Below are positions 5,611 through 64,000 of a stretch of DNA of 64,000 bases, one piece after another (the first letter of the stretch is position 1; each line of letters begins with the position of its first letter). Position numbers and translations under genes: made by a program. The notes under the pieces were generated by a model. The model made no database searches. It saw only the letters and a program-made list of their open reading frames with translations, and was not told the DNA's origin. Origin of the DNA: Candidatus Sulfotelmatobacter sp. (GTDB taxonomy: Bacteria; Acidobacteriota; Terriglobia; Terriglobales; Acidobacteriaceae); assembly GCA_025462865.1 (NCBI GenBank), contig JAOAPI010000019.1, positions 124,001 to 188,000 on the forward strand, read 5' to 3'.

Positions 5611-6660
5611 ATGGCTACGTCTCAACACAGCTTTCAGCTCGGCATTTTGCCGGAGCGCAAGATCGACCGGCGCGCCGTCGCCACCGGCTACACGTTTCTC
5701 GTGCTGATGATTTTGGTTTTTATTAATGTGGGACTTTTGTTTCCCGACAGAATCCAGCTGAAGGAATATCGCGTCACCTCACTCATCCCTCTTCCATCGC
5801 TGCGGCCGGAACCCGCGCCGATCAAAGTAAAGCCGGTTCAGGTGAAGGCAAAACTGTTGCCACCCGCTCCTGTGTTCGAGCAGCCGAGACTGATTGTGCC
5901 GCGTGAAGTACATCGCACTCTGGCTCCTGAGCCTGTGGAAGCGCCCAAAGTAGTGGTGAACCAGTTCGCTGCTCCTCAATTGAAGATGGCCTCCGCCGGT
6001 GGAGCGCGCCCCCAACTTTTACACACGGGAGAATTTTCGGGCAGTTCCGTAACTCCAACGGTGAACGCGGCAGTGCAAAAAGTTCAGACCGGAGGTTTCG
6101 GCGATCCCAATGGTTTGCAGGGTACGGGCAAACAAGCCGCCAAGCTGTACGCAGCTCCAACCGGCGCTTTTGAGATGCCCGCCGGTCCGGGACAAGGCAA
6201 CGGCTCAGGCGGAGCGAAGGGTATCAAGGGCACAGTAGCCAGCGCCTCCTTCGGCAACGGTATCGCTAACGGCGGCAATGGAGACGGCCGCAGCAGCGGA
6301 CGCGGCAGTGGAATTTCGACCGGCGGATTCGGATCCGAACAAGTGGTGCACAACGCACCCAAGATCGTGCAAGCGGATTCCGGACCTCCGACCAATTCAG
6401 TAGAGATCACATACAAGCCGCAGCCGGTTTACACCGCTGAAGCGCGCAGTCTAAAGCTGGAAGGCGAAGTTCTTCTGGAAGTGATGTTCGGGGCCAACGG
6501 AACGCTCCACGTGAATCGAGTGGTGCGAGGACTGGGCCACGGGCTGGATGAAGCTGCGACCACCGCCGCAAACAAGATGCGTTTCAAGCCGGCACTTCGT
6601 AACGGTCAGCCGGTGGATTCGACGGCGATCGTGCACGTGTCGTTTCAGATGGCGTACTAA
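5611..6660 (+). CDS. TonB-like energy transducer
   Basis: 349 residues. A single N-terminal membrane anchor (about residues 26-45) is followed by a proline/lysine/valine-rich periplasmic linker, a glycine/serine-rich stretch (about 185-245), and a TonB C-terminal domain (about 265-349: YTAEARSLKLEGEVLLEV, then MRFKPALRNGQPVDS). TonB proteins couple the proton motive force, through ExbB-ExbD, to outer-membrane receptors. No exbB, exbD or TonB-dependent receptor is present in the window, so it would work with partners encoded elsewhere. Acidobacteria commonly carry several such stand-alone TonB-like proteins. The metalloprotease gene follows 139 bases downstream. Confidence 0.8.
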   Translation: MATSQHSFQLGILPERKIDRRAVATGYTFLVLMILVFINVGLLFPDRIQLKEYRVTSLIPLPSLRPEPAPIKVKPVQVKAKLLPPAPVFEQPRLIVPREVHRTLAPEPVEAPKVVVNQFAAPQLKMASAGGARPQLLHTGEFSGSSVTPTVNAAVQKVQTGGFGDPNGLQGTGKQAAKLYAAPTGAFEMPAGPGQGNGSGGAKGIKGTVASASFGNGIANGGNGDGRSSGRGSGISTGGFGSEQVVHNAPKIVQADSGPPTNSVEITYKPQPVYTAEARSLKLEGEVLLEVMFGANGTLHVNRVVRGLGHGLDEAATTAANKMRFKPALRNGQPVDSTAIVHVSFQMAY

Positions 6661-58959: not shown

Positions 58960-59094
58960 TCACTGCACCAGGCCAAGCGATCCGTAAATGCCTGCCCCGA
59001 TGATGGTTAAGATCATTGCTACCACGATGATGATTGCCGTCCAACTAATGGCTTCGATTGTGATGATGGCGCGGTTCGTAATTCTCGTGTCCAT
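58960..59094 (-). CDS. Small single-pass membrane protein (44 aa)
   Basis: A 44-codon frame with ATG at 59094 and TGA at 58960. GGAGAGGAG lies just upstream of the ATG, a strong ribosome site. The protein has a charged N-terminus (MDTRITNRA), then a hydrophobic stretch of about 32 residues rich in Ile, Ala and Val ending in GSLGLVQ, thus one membrane helix. No family recognised. It is the first gene on this strand before the cytochrome gene, 204 bases away. Confidence 0.6.
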   Translation of the reverse strand: MDTRITNRAIITIEAISWTAIIIVVAMILTIIGAGIYGSLGLVQ

Positions 59095-59272: not shown

Positions 59273-59596
59273 CTAAAGAAACTCGTGTCTCTGCCCGGGG
59301 GTGGCGCTCACGCGAAAATGGATTCGAGCGAATCCTGACTCAACAAAGCCTTTCAACCTGCGCTTGGTTGAGATGATGAAGGCTATTGCCTGCCATGCCG
59401 CCGCGAGACAAATGCCCAGCAGGCTCGGTTGCGCTAAGCATGTGCTCACTGCATAAGCGCAGTTCGGGATGGCAATGAACCATGAATCTCTCGCCATCAG
59501 GACTACCTTATGCATTTTCGCTTCTCCCAAAAAGATGATTGCCAGTCCAACAGCATCACAGCTCGGTGTGCCGATCGCATGATGCTCACACTTCAC
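59273..59596 (-). CDS. Possible small membrane protein (107 aa from GTG; 80 aa if ATG 59515)
   Basis: Starts at a GTG at 59596; an ATG at 59515 has a better ribosome site (GGGAG). The sequence contains one or two hydrophobic stretches (SWFIAIPNCAYAV, LGICLAAAWQAIAFIIS) and a basic tail (KRRLKG). No family recognised. Support comes mainly from the phased TTTAC-type box at 59658-59683 upstream and in the right orientation, with a TAATTA -10-like element 24 bases after it. Coding status is uncertain. Confidence 0.4.
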   Translation of the reverse strand: MKCEHHAIGTPSCDAVGLAIIFLGEAKMHKVVLMARDSWFIAIPNCAYAVSTCLAQPSLLGICLAAAWQAIAFIISTKRRLKGFVESGFARIHFRVSATPGQRHEFL

Positions 59597-59657
59597 GTTG
59601 AGACATCCAGTGTTCGGTGTGCGTAATTAATTAGAAGCGTCCAGGACTACGACGGGC

Positions 59658-59683
59658 GTAAAGAGTTGGCAAAGCTGTGCAAA
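59658..59683 (-). promoter_or_regulatory. Phased direct-repeat box (site a), Cpx-like
   Basis: Read on the minus strand: TTTGC, TTTGC, then CAACTC, then TTTAC, with half-sites spaced 10 and 11 bases apart. The innermost half, TTTGC-CAACTC-TTTAC, is nearly the same as in sites b and c. It lies upstream of the small gene at 59273-59596. Confidence 0.6.
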
Positions 59684-59802
59684 GATCCGTTGCAGCGCAC
59701 CACCGGAAGTTCTTTTTGAAGAGCGCAGCCATCATAGGCATTTGGAAGACGCGCCAGGACCGTGGCAAAACAAAGTTCTCGATTTGGCGATCGCGGGAAA
59801 GA

Positions 59803-59829
59803 GCCTCGGCACTACTGAGTCGCCGAGGC
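59803..59829 (-). terminator. GC-rich hairpin, possible terminator of the 159-aa gene
   Basis: GCCTCGGC (59803-59810) pairs exactly with GCCGAGGC (59822-59829), with an inner ACT/AGT pairing in the loop. On the minus strand it is followed by TCTTT, a short T-rich tract. It is 126 bases past the stop of the exported protein gene at 59955-60434. The rest of 59597-59954 holds no gene I can support. Confidence 0.45.
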
Positions 59830-59954
59830 ATCCTATCCTTGTGTCGCTCTCCGCGAAGACTCGTGGTTCGCGGCATCGGAAAAGGGAACTCATGTGTCGC
59901 GTTTGGTGTGATGTAGCCAGCGAAGCGTTGATGAAGCTGAGAAGAGCGTTGCAA

Positions 59955-60434
59955 TCAAAGTCCGTATTCATCTTCTTCATCCTGACTTTGTTCAGGCTCG
60001 CTCTGACCGGAATTGCCCTGGCGAACGCCGCTCCAAGTATGGCTTCCCTGTCCACCTCCGCGCCCGCCACGTCCGCCGCCACCTCCGCCCTGAGGCTGAA
60101 AGGTGCCGCTCATCTTGTCGCCATCAATGGTCCCTGTAAACGCCAGGGTCATGGGACGTCCCTGTATTTGCACACTAAAAGACACGTTGTTTCCAGAAAT
60201 ACTTCCAGACACTGAGGAAGATCCGCTTGAGTCCTCAAACGTGCCGCTGAGTTTCGAACCATCTTGCTGGATTTGCATTGTGGCTTGCTGAGAGCCATTC
60301 CGGCCCTGCCATGAAATCTGCCAGCCCCCAACAATATTCGAAGCCTGGGAATTAGTCGATTGTGAGTCTTGCGCGAGCAATAACGGTGCGGCAAGAAGAA
60401 AAGAAAACAAAAGCGGGTACAGTCGTTTAATCAT
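59955..60434 (-). CDS. Exported beta-rich protein of unknown function
   Basis: 159 residues. GGAGG precedes the ATG. A signal peptide (about 1-21, APLLLAQ) leads to a beta-rich domain (about 35-110) built of repeated strand pairs (GSKLSGTF, VSGSISGNNVSFSV, GDKMSGTF), then a Gly/Arg-rich linker (GGGGGGRGGRGGG) and an acidic tail (EPEQSQDEEDEY). I do not recognise a family. The phased repeat box b lies 48 bases upstream of the start, so the gene is probably regulated with the Cpx-like system. Confidence 0.65.
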   Translation of the reverse strand: MIKRLYPLLFSFLLAAPLLLAQDSQSTNSQASNIVGGWQISWQGRNGSQQATMQIQQDGSKLSGTFEDSSGSSSVSGSISGNNVSFSVQIQGRPMTLAFTGTIDGDKMSGTFQPQGGGGGGRGGRGGGQGSHTWSGVRQGNSGQSEPEQSQDEEDEYGL

Positions 60435-60481
60435 GTTAGCCTCCGTGCTCCTTATACAAACACGGCACGAGACTCGCAGGG

Positions 60482-60507
60482 GTAAAGAGTTCGCAAAGCA
60501 AAGTAAA
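60482..60507 (-). promoter_or_regulatory. Phased direct-repeat box (site b), Cpx-like
   Basis: On the minus strand: TTTAC, then TTTGC 10 bases on, then GAACTC, then TTTAC 11 bases on; half-site starts are 60503, 60493 and 60482 on the plus strand (GTAAA, GCAAA, GTAAA). It is 47 bases upstream of the 159-residue gene. A TATAAG element (60451-60456) downstream is -10-like; the -35 is poor, as expected for an activated promoter. Confidence 0.65.
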
Positions 60508-60639
60508 GTCTTGTTCTACCCAATCAACCCACCAGGTTCTTCTGACGCTTGAGATCAGTTTGAATTCGACCTCGAAGCGTGATGATGAGACAGCGCTGCT
60601 ACAACCAGACCTCCAAAGCCAGGGTGGGGTTAACAAAAG

Positions 60640-60666
60640 TTTACGTCGCGTTTTCGAACTCTTTAC
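60640..60666 (+). promoter_or_regulatory. Phased direct-repeat box (site c), Cpx-like
   Basis: TTTAC (60640), TTTTC (60651) and TTTAC (60662) at 11-base spacing. The inner half TTTTC-GAACTC-TTTACC matches site b at 16 of 17 positions. It lies 59 bases upstream of the receiver-only gene at 60726; a TAAATT element at 60689 could be its -10. Confidence 0.65.
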
Positions 60667-60725
60667 CTCGTTCCTTCTGCATCTCGGCTAAATTCTGTGG
60701 AGCAGTGAATTGGAGGGACCGCGTG

Positions 60726-61220
60726 ATGACTGCAAACGAAAGAAGCGAGCGTAGCTGGAGCGTACCGGCCCAATACGCTCAGAGATTGAAGCTGATCATT
60801 GCGGACGGAACACCCAGATACCTCGATACTGTCCGCAGTGTGTTGGAGTTTCATGACAGCGTGGATCTACTTGGACGAGCTGCAAACTTCGAGGAGACGA
60901 TCCAACTGGCGGTAAATCTGCGGCCGGACCTGGTTCTGTTGGATATGGAAATGCCCTCGGCGATGGTGGCAATCGCGGCCATAGTTACTGCTGCGGCCAA
61001 GGTCCAGATTGTTGGCATGTTCAACGCCAGCATTCCCCTGCACGCGCCGGCCCTTATGCTGTCGGTCAGCGCGTTCATCGATAAGGCGAGATTGTGGAAC
61101 GACCTGTTGCCGGTTCTGCACACAGTGATTCGCCGTCAAGCGGCGTCAAGACCGGTGGATCACTCGTCCTCTTTTCACGACGCCAGCGAATGGCAGTGCG
61201 CCGGACTGCCTCTTCACTAA
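60726..61220 (+). CDS. Receiver-domain protein without recognised output domain
   Basis: 164 residues from the ATG at 60726, chosen for GGAGGG upstream. The receiver starts at about residue 20 (LKLIIADGTPRYLDTV) with phospho-acceptor Asp in LVLLDMEMP and Lys in AFIDKARL. The N-terminal acidic pair is AD rather than DD, so metal binding may be weaker. Beyond the receiver only about 35 polar residues follow; no helix-turn-helix is visible. It resembles NarL-type receivers that have lost their DNA-binding half. Preceded by box c. Confidence 0.7.
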   Translation: MTANERSERSWSVPAQYAQRLKLIIADGTPRYLDTVRSVLEFHDSVDLLGRAANFEETIQLAVNLRPDLVLLDMEMPSAMVAIAAIVTAAAKVQIVGMFNASIPLHAPALMLSVSAFIDKARLWNDLLPVLHTVIRRQAASRPVDHSSSFHDASEWQCAGLPLH

Positions 61221-61305
61221 AGCTGAAGAGTTAACCGGCGCTGCGTGGATCTTCTTCCGATAGGTCACACACTATTCTTTATTCCTTGGCAGCAGGAGCA
61301 ATTCA

Positions 61306-61989
61306 ATGAGAGCGCTATCGAATATTGGGACGTCTTTTGTAACCCTTTTGTGGATGACTAGTATAGTTTTCACACTCGCTTGCGGAACTGGAAACAGCCA
61401 GATCAGATTATTGAACGCGTCCCCGGGTGAGTCATCTTTAACGGCATCGGTTGGAGGCACGTCCATCGCGACCACTGTAAATTATGGAACTGCATCGAGC
61501 TACATCTCCGTCCCGTCGGGTTCGGCAACTCTTGCGGTGGAAGCCGCTGGCACGACAAGCCTGCTTATCAACGCGAGCATCACTCTGAGTTCTAACACCT
61601 CTTATACGGTGCTTGCCGGGAACTATTCCTCCGCAATTAACGCCACAATTCTCAGCGACGACAACACAACGCCTGCGTCTGGAAACGTTAGCATTCGTCT
61701 CGTGAATGCCTCGCCGACGCTGGGAACCGCAGATGTGTATGTCCTCGCACCCGGAAGCAGCCTGAGCAGTGCCACCCCAGTAGTCACCAGTCTGAATTTC
61801 GAATCCGCGTCCAGTTATCAATCCCTCAGTGCGGGCAACTATGAAGTGTATTTCACGCAGCCCGGCCAAAAATCCGCGGTGATCGATAGCGGCCCTCTGA
61901 CACTGACGTCGCAACAGATACGCACCGTCGTTGGTTTGGACGGGGAATCAGGTGGATACGAGACAGCCGTGCTCTCGGACCTCAACTAA
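61306..61989 (+). CDS. DUF4397 lipoprotein
   Basis: 227 residues; AGGAG lies 10 bases upstream of the ATG. A lipoprotein signal ends at TLAC (about 23-26). Two DUF4397-type repeats follow: the first includes IRLLNASPGESSLTASVGG and SVPSGSATLAVEAAG, the second IRLVNASPTLGTADVYVLAP and SLSAGNYEVYFTQPG. The domain is found in exported proteins of unknown role. The repeats are internal copies of each other. It has no clear copy of the phased box upstream. Confidence 0.82.
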   Translation: MRALSNIGTSFVTLLWMTSIVFTLACGTGNSQIRLLNASPGESSLTASVGGTSIATTVNYGTASSYISVPSGSATLAVEAAGTTSLLINASITLSSNTSYTVLAGNYSSAINATILSDDNTTPASGNVSIRLVNASPTLGTADVYVLAPGSSLSSATPVVTSLNFESASSYQSLSAGNYEVYFTQPGQKSAVIDSGPLTLTSQQIRTVVGLDGESGGYETAVLSDLN

Positions 61990-62084
61990 TGAAATCACGT
62001 GGAGGTTTCGAACTTCGCAATTGCGATCCTTCGCGCGGAACCTTGAGAGAGACTGCGTGAATCGATCGGTAGCTGTCGAGCATG

Positions 62085-62110
62085 TTTACGCAATCTTTAC
62101 AAATCTTTAT
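62085..62110 (+). promoter_or_regulatory. Phased direct-repeat box (site d) before the OmpR-type regulator
   Basis: TTTAC (62085), TTTAC (62096) and TTTAT (62106) at 11- and 10-base spacing. The reverse complement reads GTAAA-N6-GTAAA, close to the CpxR box (GTAAA-N5-GTAAA). It is 47 bases upstream of the regulator gene at 62158, so autoregulation is likely. Confidence 0.6.
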
Positions 62111-62157: not shown

Positions 62158-62868
62158 ATGGAGAGCATTCTTGTGGTCGATGATGACGTTGAGATGTGCG
62201 GCATGCTCGCCGAATATCTTCAATCGGAAGGACTGCAAGTCGAAATGGTCCACAACGGCGAGCACGGTCTCAAACGAGCATTGTCAGGAGAGCACTCTCT
62301 TATTCTGCTCGACATCATGCTCCCGAAGATCAATGGGATTGAATTACTGCGGCGGCTAAGAACGGAGTCTAACGCTCGTGTGCTGCTGCTAACTGCGCGA
62401 GGAGAGGAAGTCGACCGCATCATAGGCCTGGAGGTGGGTGCAGATGATTACGTTCCCAAACCTTTTAGCGCTCGTGAACTCCTGGCACGCATACGCGCGA
62501 TTCTTAGAAGACCCGAAACTGGTCCGGCGGCAAACTCACGAGGCTCGTCGATTGTCGTGCTCGGCGATGTCGAAATGGACAAGGGAACCCGCAGCGTGAG
62601 GCGAGCGGGATCTGACATAGAGCTGACAGCGCTTGAGTTCAATCTGCTCGAATTGCTATTGAGGATGGCAGGCCAGGTTGTCACGCGAGAACGGGTAGCG
62701 GCAGCGATCATGGGACGGCAATTCTCGCCTTTCGATCGCAGCATCGACGTTCACGTTAGCAAGCTCCGCCGCAAATTAGGACCGCAAGCGTCGGGACAGG
62801 AACGGATCAAATCCATCCGGAGTGTTGGGTATATCTATACCGCGCAGGCCCAAATGGAAGAGAACTAA
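62158..62868 (+). CDS. OmpR-family response regulator (CpxR-like)
   Basis: 236 residues. The receiver (1-120) has VDDDVEM, phospho-acceptor Asp in ILLDIMLPK, Thr in LLTARG and Lys in VPKPF; the winged-helix output domain (about 138-232) has GTRSVRRAGSDIELTALEFNLL and the recognition region VHVSKLRRKLG. Overall closest in wording to CpxR-type regulators. It is six bases ahead of its kinase gene. The phased box d upstream, and similar boxes before three nearby genes, suggest it is the factor that binds them. Confidence 0.92.
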   Translation: MESILVVDDDVEMCGMLAEYLQSEGLQVEMVHNGEHGLKRALSGEHSLILLDIMLPKINGIELLRRLRTESNARVLLLTARGEEVDRIIGLEVGADDYVPKPFSARELLARIRAILRRPETGPAANSRGSSIVVLGDVEMDKGTRSVRRAGSDIELTALEFNLLELLLRMAGQVVTRERVAAAIMGRQFSPFDRSIDVHVSKLRRKLGPQASGQERIKSIRSVGYIYTAQAQMEEN

Positions 62869-62874
62869 CCAGCT

Positions 62875-64000
62875 ATGCGGACTCTCTTCTGGAAAATATT
62901 TCTGTCGTTTTGGGTGGTGGTGGCAGCGTCGATTGTTGGCAGCTTGTTCTTCAGACCCGCAGCGCCCCTGCCGGCGTGGCAAAACTTGGTTTCCACCGGT
63001 TTTGGCATCCAAAGCCAGAACCTTGTACAAGCGTACGAGAGAGGCGGTCAGCCCGAACTCGTTCGCTTGATGCAACGCCTTCGGCAAAGTTCCTACGACC
63101 AAATCTTCTTGCTCGATGCCAAAGGCAACGACGTTGCTGGGCAGCAAGTGACGCCGCAGGCGAGACGTGTCGCTAAACGCGTTACCGCTGATAGCAAAGT
63201 GGAATTTGCTCGTGTCGGAGGTGACACTTTGCTCGCCGAGCGTGTCGTGTCGATTGATGACACGCGGTACGTAGCGGTTGCCAGATTTTTGGAGGTGCCC
63301 GGTCTGCCGGGGCGGCCTCTATTGCGCGGCTTGGCAGTCGCAATCGCAATCTCAGGAATCGTGTGCTTTTGGCTTGCTCGGTATTTGAGTGCTCCAATCG
63401 TTCGCTTGCGAAACGCCGCGCACGAACTGGCTAGAGGAAATCTAGCCGCCCGTGCCGGAAGGCAGCTCAGCAACCGGCATGACGAGATCGCACAACTGGT
63501 ACAAGAGTTCGACCGGATGGCGGTGCAGATTGAATCGCTTATGTGCGCGCAAAAGAGACTGATCAGCGACGTTTCTCACGAGTTCCGCTCACCGCTCACG
63601 CGGATGTATCTTGCCGCAGAACTGATTCGCAAGGTAAATCATCCCGCGGTGAAGACGGCAAGCTTGCGGATTGAGCAAGAGATAGAGCGCCTGAACGGCA
63701 TGATCAGCAACCTGCTTACACTTTCCAAGATCGACGCGTGCGAATCGCTTACCAGTAAGAAGACGATTGATGTTGCCGACCTGCTGCGAACAATTGTGAA
63801 CGACGCCGACTTCGAGGCACACGATCACGACTGCCGGGTGATCCTCTACGGGTCCGAAGATTGCTCGACGATCGGCAATCCCGATCTGCTTCGGAGCGCG
63901 GTGGAAAATGTAATCCGTAATGCGATTCGTTACACCGCGCAGCAGACTGAAGTGGAGGTTCAGCTCACATGTGAAACACATGGCGCCGCTTCCGAAGCGA
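62875..64000 (+). CDS. Sensor histidine kinase, CpxA-like (3' end outside window)
   Basis: 375 codons are visible and the frame is open to the window edge. One membrane helix at the start (about 7-26), a short periplasmic domain (about 27-140), a second helix (about 147-167), a HAMP domain (about 168-222), HisKA with SDVSHEFRSPL (H near residue 239), and the N-box VENVIRNAIRYT before the edge. This is the CpxA layout with a small sensor domain. It forms the pair with the regulator just upstream. Confidence 0.9.
   Translation, partial: MRTLFWKIFLSFWVVVAASIVGSLFFRPAAPLPAWQNLVSTGFGIQSQNLVQAYERGGQPELVRLMQRLRQSSYDQIFLLDAKGNDVAGQQVTPQARRVAKRVTADSKVEFARVGGDTLLAERVVSIDDTRYVAVARFLEVPGLPGRPLLRGLAVAIAISGIVCFWLARYLSAPIVRLRNAAHELARGNLAARAGRQLSNRHDEIAQLVQEFDRMAVQIESLMCAQKRLISDVSHEFRSPLTRMYLAAELIRKVNHPAVKTASLRIEQEIERLNGMISNLLTLSKIDACESLTSKKTIDVADLLRTIVNDADFEAHDHDCRVILYGSEDCSTIGNPDLLRSAVENVIRNAIRYTAQQTEVEVQLTCETHGAASEA

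Follow-up and report, generated by a model that had tools for sequence, protein, structure and literature searches.

Candidate operators of a CpxR-type regulator around an accessory CpxRA pair in Candidatus Sulfotelmatobacter

Which regulator reads the phased TTTAC-type repeats that lie near the end of a 64,000-nucleotide stretch of the Candidatus Sulfotelmatobacter sp. genome (contig JAOAPI010000019.1, positions 124,001 to 188,000; the window hereafter)? Four triple repeats, or boxes, occur close to a gene for an OmpR-type response regulator beginning at position 62158, and a first-pass annotation had proposed that they form a Cpx-like mini-regulon. Comparison with related genomes makes it probable that a CpxR-type regulator uses the four sites as its operators and that these form part of a regulon local to an accessory CpxRA pair, which stands beside a core CpxRA pair in the same genome. 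The boxes, named in the order of their positions with half-sites separated by their pitch in base pairs (bp), are as follows.

59658-59683, minus strand: Cpx-type box 1, TTTGC-10-TTTGC-11-TTTAC
60482-60507, minus strand: Cpx-type box 2, TTTAC-10-TTTGC-11-TTTAC
60640-60666, plus strand: Cpx-type box 3, TTTAC-11-TTTTC-11-TTTAC
62085-62110, plus strand: Cpx-type box 4, TTTAC-11-TTTAC-10-TTTAT, upstream of the regulator gene at 62158

Boxes around an accessory CpxRA pair

Direct reading and rescoring located all four triple boxes with the 10/11-bp spacing as originally described, including the 16 of 17 positions shared by boxes 2 and 3 (TTTNCGAACTCTTTACC). Box 3 has an additional TTAAC half-site at 60630, 10 bp upstream. 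The GAACTC spacer, which had been called conserved, is present in some of the boxes and not in the others. Each box has an open frame downstream in its own direction, as had been claimed, with the minus-strand frame behind box 1 unconfirmed as a gene. Tandem GTAAA/TTTAC half-sites 10-11 bp apart, a mark of Cpx regulon membership, are present in the target promoters.

The regulator and the kinase gene following it resemble CpxR and CpxA.

62158-62868, plus strand: accessory CpxR-like response regulator
62875-64000, plus strand: accessory CpxA-like histidine kinase, the gene extending 254 bases beyond the window end

The best of the 97 NCBIfam models matched by the regulator was CpxR (NF008199), and the CpxA models NF045900 and NF007007 were the two best of 82 for the kinase. 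The regulator is 45% identical to Escherichia coli CpxR over 230 aligned residues, and its recognition helix is nearly common to E. coli CpxR and to a second regulator of the same genome (contig C154, locus L016), which is 61% identical to it and is encoded divergently from a Spy/CpxP-like gene. At E 1e-90 the regulator was found in four of 45 genus genomes, the window's own (G000), G013, G016 and G056. These proteins form one clade separate from the core regulators (support 100/99) in a tree that was built without proteins from L003, L019, L020 and L022 and carries a long-branch warning. By sequence, the pair is therefore accessory rather than core.

A relaxed triple scan of the whole window returned just the four boxes and one overlapping register, relative to a random expectation of about 0.6 per 64 kb (20 dinucleotide-model random sequences, scanned on one strand and the count doubled). 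The exact pattern TTTRCN{5,6}TTTNCN{5,6}TTTRC matched four times in the 6.08-Mb genome, all within 9.4 kb of contig C31 (183658-193001), while the reversed pattern used as a control did not match. Three of the matches are boxes 1 to 3, box 4 being missed because it ends in TTTAT; the fourth (C31:192976-193001) lies about 5 kb beyond the window end, with 48 bases between it and a frame whose translation looks like an exported protein. Across the 45 genus genomes there were 80 exact matches and 18 reversed ones, a stronger contrast than that in intergenic location: 63 of 79 distinct matches (one duplicate dropped) were intergenic, with 58 of the 63 pointing at the nearest downstream gene, as against 12 of 18 and nine of 12 for the control. 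Genes were called, and matches judged intergenic, with a simple codon model for which 30 long window frames served as the training set. The intergenic share taken alone was rejected as proof of function, the reversed control being mostly intergenic as well. The possibility that the repeat is as common inside genes as upstream of them was thus checked across all 45 genomes, and the proposal of a regulon survived. Chance occurrence of AT-rich repeats, to which the AT-rich pattern and the preference of its reversed form for intergenic DNA might point, is a negligible explanation given the confinement of all four exact matches to one stretch, the genus-wide counts, which already contradict it, and the retention of the box 2 promoter in two relatives described below.

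A matrix trained on core boxes and boxes of other genomes, with none from the window or the accessory loci, was applied to the four accessory loci (15.8 to 20 kb each) and to window positions 1-58000. Its 10/11 pitch was taken from the window finding itself, and the threshold of 15 was chosen after counts at 13 to 17 had been seen. Nineteen non-overlapping boxes were found at this threshold (six in G000, seven in G013, three in G016 and three in G056) and none in window positions 1-58000; shuffles gave 0.0042 per kb. The window's four boxes all scored at least 19. All 19 boxes were intergenic. In every case the first gene called in the direction of the box was on the same strand; on the opposite side the nearest gene ran away from the box in 11, and the other eight lay between same-strand genes or at a contig end. 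A mini-regulon near the regulator at 62158 is supported by this, with 10/11 phasing and with boxes upstream of genes near the regulator in all four genomes that have it.

Genes following these boxes included receiver-only proteins in G000, G013 (twice) and G056, an outer-membrane efflux protein and an LTXXQ protein (above the Pfam cut-off) in G013, and a DUF4397 protein, assigned by similarity, in G056. The LTXXQ-like relative of G000, beyond the window end, and the Spy-like protein next to it fall under the Pfam cut-off. Efflux operons were also noted in the accessory loci (L153 1-4215 and L154 7837-12648); that of G013 encodes an outer-membrane efflux protein and a HlyD-type fusion protein with a box ahead of the operon, and similar genes occur in G016. 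The genes around the boxes in the window, besides the pair itself, are listed below.

59273-59596, minus strand: open frame following box 1, not confirmed as a gene
59955-60434, minus strand: exported protein of 159 amino acids
60726-61220, plus strand: receiver-only protein (Response_reg, 24 bits, under the Pfam cut-off of 30.2)
61306-61989, plus strand: DUF4397 putative lipoprotein, lipobox judged by eye

Signal peptides here and throughout were judged by eye. The exported protein had no Pfam family at E 0.01. A relative of the receiver-only protein at E 1e-15 was found in G013 alone among the 44 other genus genomes. The DUF4397 gene, possibly co-transcribed with the receiver gene, was found at E 1e-20 only in the four genus genomes, out of 45, that have the accessory regulator, a coincidence uncorrected for relatedness and with partial coverage in G013. 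Beyond the window end are genes for a PEGA-domain protein, two weak LTXXQ matches (one also Spy-like), an exported protein and a VWA-domain protein. As one of the targets, the first-pass annotation had named a small putative membrane protein; its frame, 59273-59596, is unconfirmed as a gene and had no Pfam match at E 0.01. A 44-amino-acid open frame at 58960-59094 on the minus strand looks like a small membrane protein with one helix.

Promoter geometry and the core CpxRA paralogue

A fixed distance between the boxes and a -10-like hexamer was first noticed by eye in the window and in core promoters. Over the 19 accessory-locus boxes, similarity to TATAAT peaked 22 bases after the last half-site at 2.74 of 6, relative to a mean of 1.50 (standard deviation 0.26) at other offsets, and none of 2000 shuffles reached that peak. 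Boxes 1 to 4 of the window match at 5, 3, 4 and 3 positions, respectively, at this offset, and three candidate hexamers can be named.

59630-59635, minus strand: TCTAAT, predicted -10-like hexamer at the usual distance from box 1
60454-60459, minus strand: TTGTAT, -10-like hexamer, part of GTGTTNNTAT, common to core spy promoters
60689-60694, plus strand: TAAATT, predicted -10-like hexamer

By this spacing the last half-site falls over the usual -35 position, where a half-site is expected for activators of the OmpR/PhoB type. The composite TTTAC-N18-GTGTTNNTAT matched 26 times in the 45 genomes and six times as a reversed control (summed from a table); these counts measure spread rather than discovery because the same promoters supplied the pattern. 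The window's genome has two matches, the core spy promoter and box 2.

A regulator of this kind was found at E 1e-65 in at least one copy in 24 of 25 genus genomes searched and in none of 16 other genomes of the same order or class. Upstream regions of 25 core loci were scored, and 24 of these (L152 left out) were aligned. An exact triple box directed at the Spy-like gene was present in 22 of 25, the misses being L132 (a near match), L135 (no Spy-like start found) and L144 (contig end), and under a loose rule the same 22 loci had a fourth upstream half-site. A two-half box directed at cpxR was present in 23 of 25, with L150 and L152 missing it. The neighbour in the window's genome (L016) had Spy and CpxP as its best models, below cut-off at 61 of 174 and 55 of 160 bits; the Spy-like neighbours of the other core loci were judged by similar N-terminus alone. 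Outside the genus, matrix boxes adjoined the regulator in four Acidobacteriota records (L018, L019, L020 and L021), of which L019 and L020 had contributed half-sites to matrix training and L018 and L021 had not; no adjoining matrix box was found at L030. L021 carries the same triple, TTGACGAATCTTGACACGGGTTGAC, at 6094 and 7878, one copy ahead of the regulator and one about 1.8 kb before it.

The promoter of the exported protein at 60434 can be followed further: at E 1e-12 the protein matched 13 times, in 12 of the 45 genomes. Both the triple box and the GTGTT element are retained ahead of the relatives in G005 (75%) and G021 (76%, with a stop in the matched stretch) and are not retained ahead of four relatives at 39-49% (L263, L265, L266 and L268). 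No box at score 12 was found within 450 bases of the match start at L262, L264, L267, L269 or L271, and for L270 the contig begins at the match, leaving the upstream test empty. In G005 and G021 no accessory regulator was found at E 1e-90, only the core regulator, and core CpxR is therefore the likely regulator of the exported-protein gene there.

Which regulator reads the boxes

The regulon as first proposed, in which the regulator at 62158 controls all four sites, is only partly upheld. The boxes do cluster around it, and autoregulation through box 4 is possible from its position. Control of every site is not established by this, because the core paralogue has nearly the same recognition helix and box 2 is kept in G005 and G021; with this window promoter persisting in genomes that yielded the core regulator alone, a role for both paralogues of CpxR is possible. 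Carried to its end, this argument would make core CpxR (C154) the main reader of the boxes and the accessory pair a passenger or active elsewhere, which we consider unlikely. The near-identical helices, the TTTAC-N18-GTGTTNNTAT arrangement common to the core and box 2 promoters, and the presence of a box immediately before the accessory regulator gene in just two of four loci (G000 and G013) would all suit it. Against it, the four accessory loci scanned are each rich in matrix boxes around the accessory regulator, and the DUF4397 gene goes with that regulator in its four genomes.

It is more improbable still that the boxes belong to another member of the OmpR family whose half-site also resembles TTTAC. 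Candidates are plentiful, with 94 matches to the regulator query in the genome at E 0.001 (receiver-only matches included), and other genomes have a further recurrent box of the TTTAC type before the gene for a protein of about 90 amino acids; however, both the core and the accessory CpxR-like genes have boxes beside them, and these agree with the half-site published for CpxR. The paralogue L003, 49% identical to the regulator at 62158, had no box at the threshold used.

Several results count against the favoured reading as a whole. Both proteins fall short of the NCBIfam equivalog cut-offs (217 bits for a cut-off of 341 for the regulator; 335 of 800 and 267 of 486 bits for the kinase against NF045900 and NF007007). 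Exact matches lie near the accessory regulator in four of four cases in G000 and three of three in G013, but two of the four in G016 are elsewhere and G056 has none at all. The intergenic share of exact matches differs little from the control, as noted above. Two of the 19 matrix boxes (L153:12980 and L154:2139) are more than 500 bases from the next called gene, and five of the 19 match the -10 consensus at 0 or 1 of six positions. The frame behind box 1 had no match at E 0.001 in the 44 other genus genomes. To these are added the box missing ahead of the regulator in two of the loci, the retention of box 2 in genomes where the accessory regulator was not found, and the lack of a box in a 71% relative of the exported protein with one stop inside the match (L262, in G044).

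The 80 exact matches across the genus are not all Cpx sites, as a recurrent second family exists. Boxes at L100, L105, L191, L192, L196, L197, L199, L203, L207, L209, L214 and L220, mostly TTTACANNTCCTTTACRANTCTTTGC then GCAAGAAA, precede a conserved protein of about 80-100 amino acids in many genomes of the genus. This is perhaps another OmpR-family regulon, to judge by the boxes; the one member of the protein searched (L191) had no Pfam match. Cpx-type boxes with a GTGTTGATAT element precede exported proteins in three genomes (L112, L224 and L228) that look like carboxypeptidase-regulatory-domain proteins by reading, without a family search. Matches of the types TTTGCCACGGATTTGC and TTTACACGGATTTACACGG at L099, L109, L163, L165 and L208 look like copies of a dispersed repeat rather than operators.

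Relation to known Cpx systems and proposed mechanism

The first-pass annotation had set the triple half-site apart from a two-half E. coli box. This distinction does not hold, since arrays of more than two half-sites are also found at E. coli cpxP and at Pseudomonas aeruginosa sites. The cpxP promoter (L157) reads by eye as TTTAC, TTTAC, CTGAC and TTTGC at 10-bp steps, with CTGAC weak, and a box different in kind from that of E. coli was accordingly rejected. A half-site-strict scan missed this promoter because CTGAC matches TTTAC at three of five positions only; the matrix, whose training set includes these half-sites, scored two overlapping triples in it at 22.4 and 17.3. In P. aeruginosa, the printed CpxR sites at muxA (-78, -89) and yceJ (-63, -74) overlap at a distance of 11 bp (PMC12802237), which we read as sites with a common half-site, that is, triples. 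The same source cites GTCAA variants of the half-site, which we take as the counterpart of the TTGAC half-sites seen in the core boxes. A consensus of GTAAA-(N)4-8-GTAAA has been given (PMC5063474), a perfect match to it is described as not required (PMC9603713), and efflux genes and cpxP are among the P. aeruginosa targets described (PMC12802237, PMC5063474). Given the similarity to E. coli cpxP and the published P. aeruginosa sites, the arrangement here is a variation on a known Cpx type.

As in E. coli, the genes for the core regulator and a Spy/CpxP-like protein are divergent and have boxes in the interval, and the half-sites are of the TTTAC type at a pitch of about 10 bp. Unlike E. coli, the pitch is a mixed 10/11 bp rather than a strict 10 bp, a second, accessory CpxRA has its own box cluster and receiver-only genes, and the proteins score under the equivalog cut-offs. 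What sets the accessory locus apart from P. aeruginosa is its local clustering, which takes in receiver-only, DUF4397 and LTXXQ-like proteins. Among the papers listed, judged by titles and the beginnings of abstracts, none dealt with CpxR, CpxRA or Cpx in Acidobacteria or Acidobacteriota, and searches by paralogous CpxR names or half-site wording listed nothing on this arrangement; no paper was found on CpxR direct repeats with GTAAA.

In the accessory system that we favour, the CpxA-like kinase would sense an envelope signal and phosphorylate the regulator, and regulator molecules would bind side by side on direct half-sites one helical turn apart. With the last half-site at about the -35 position, 22 bases before the -10-like hexamer, the regulator is proposed to recruit RNA polymerase to the genes for exported proteins, stand-alone receivers, the DUF4397 protein and itself. 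The sequences themselves show the sites, their clustering and conservation, the preferred distance to the -10 and the homology of the proteins. From this arrangement we infer binding, and activation rather than repression; the signal, and the paralogue that would act at each site, are likewise proposals. A more speculative and rather doubtful extension is a self-contained second Cpx module, in which the accessory pair would activate its own receivers, these acting back on the kinase as phosphate sinks or connectors, alongside its own LTXXQ and DUF4397 envelope proteins, and operators held in common with the core pair would integrate two envelope signals.

Control of envelope stress of the Cpx type, together with the geometry of its boxes and promoters, would thereby be extended to an acidobacterial lineage, in which a second Cpx pair would have a local regulon that includes receiver-only genes. 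The two pairs may offer a natural case for how paralogous regulators with a near-identical recognition helix share or split their operators.

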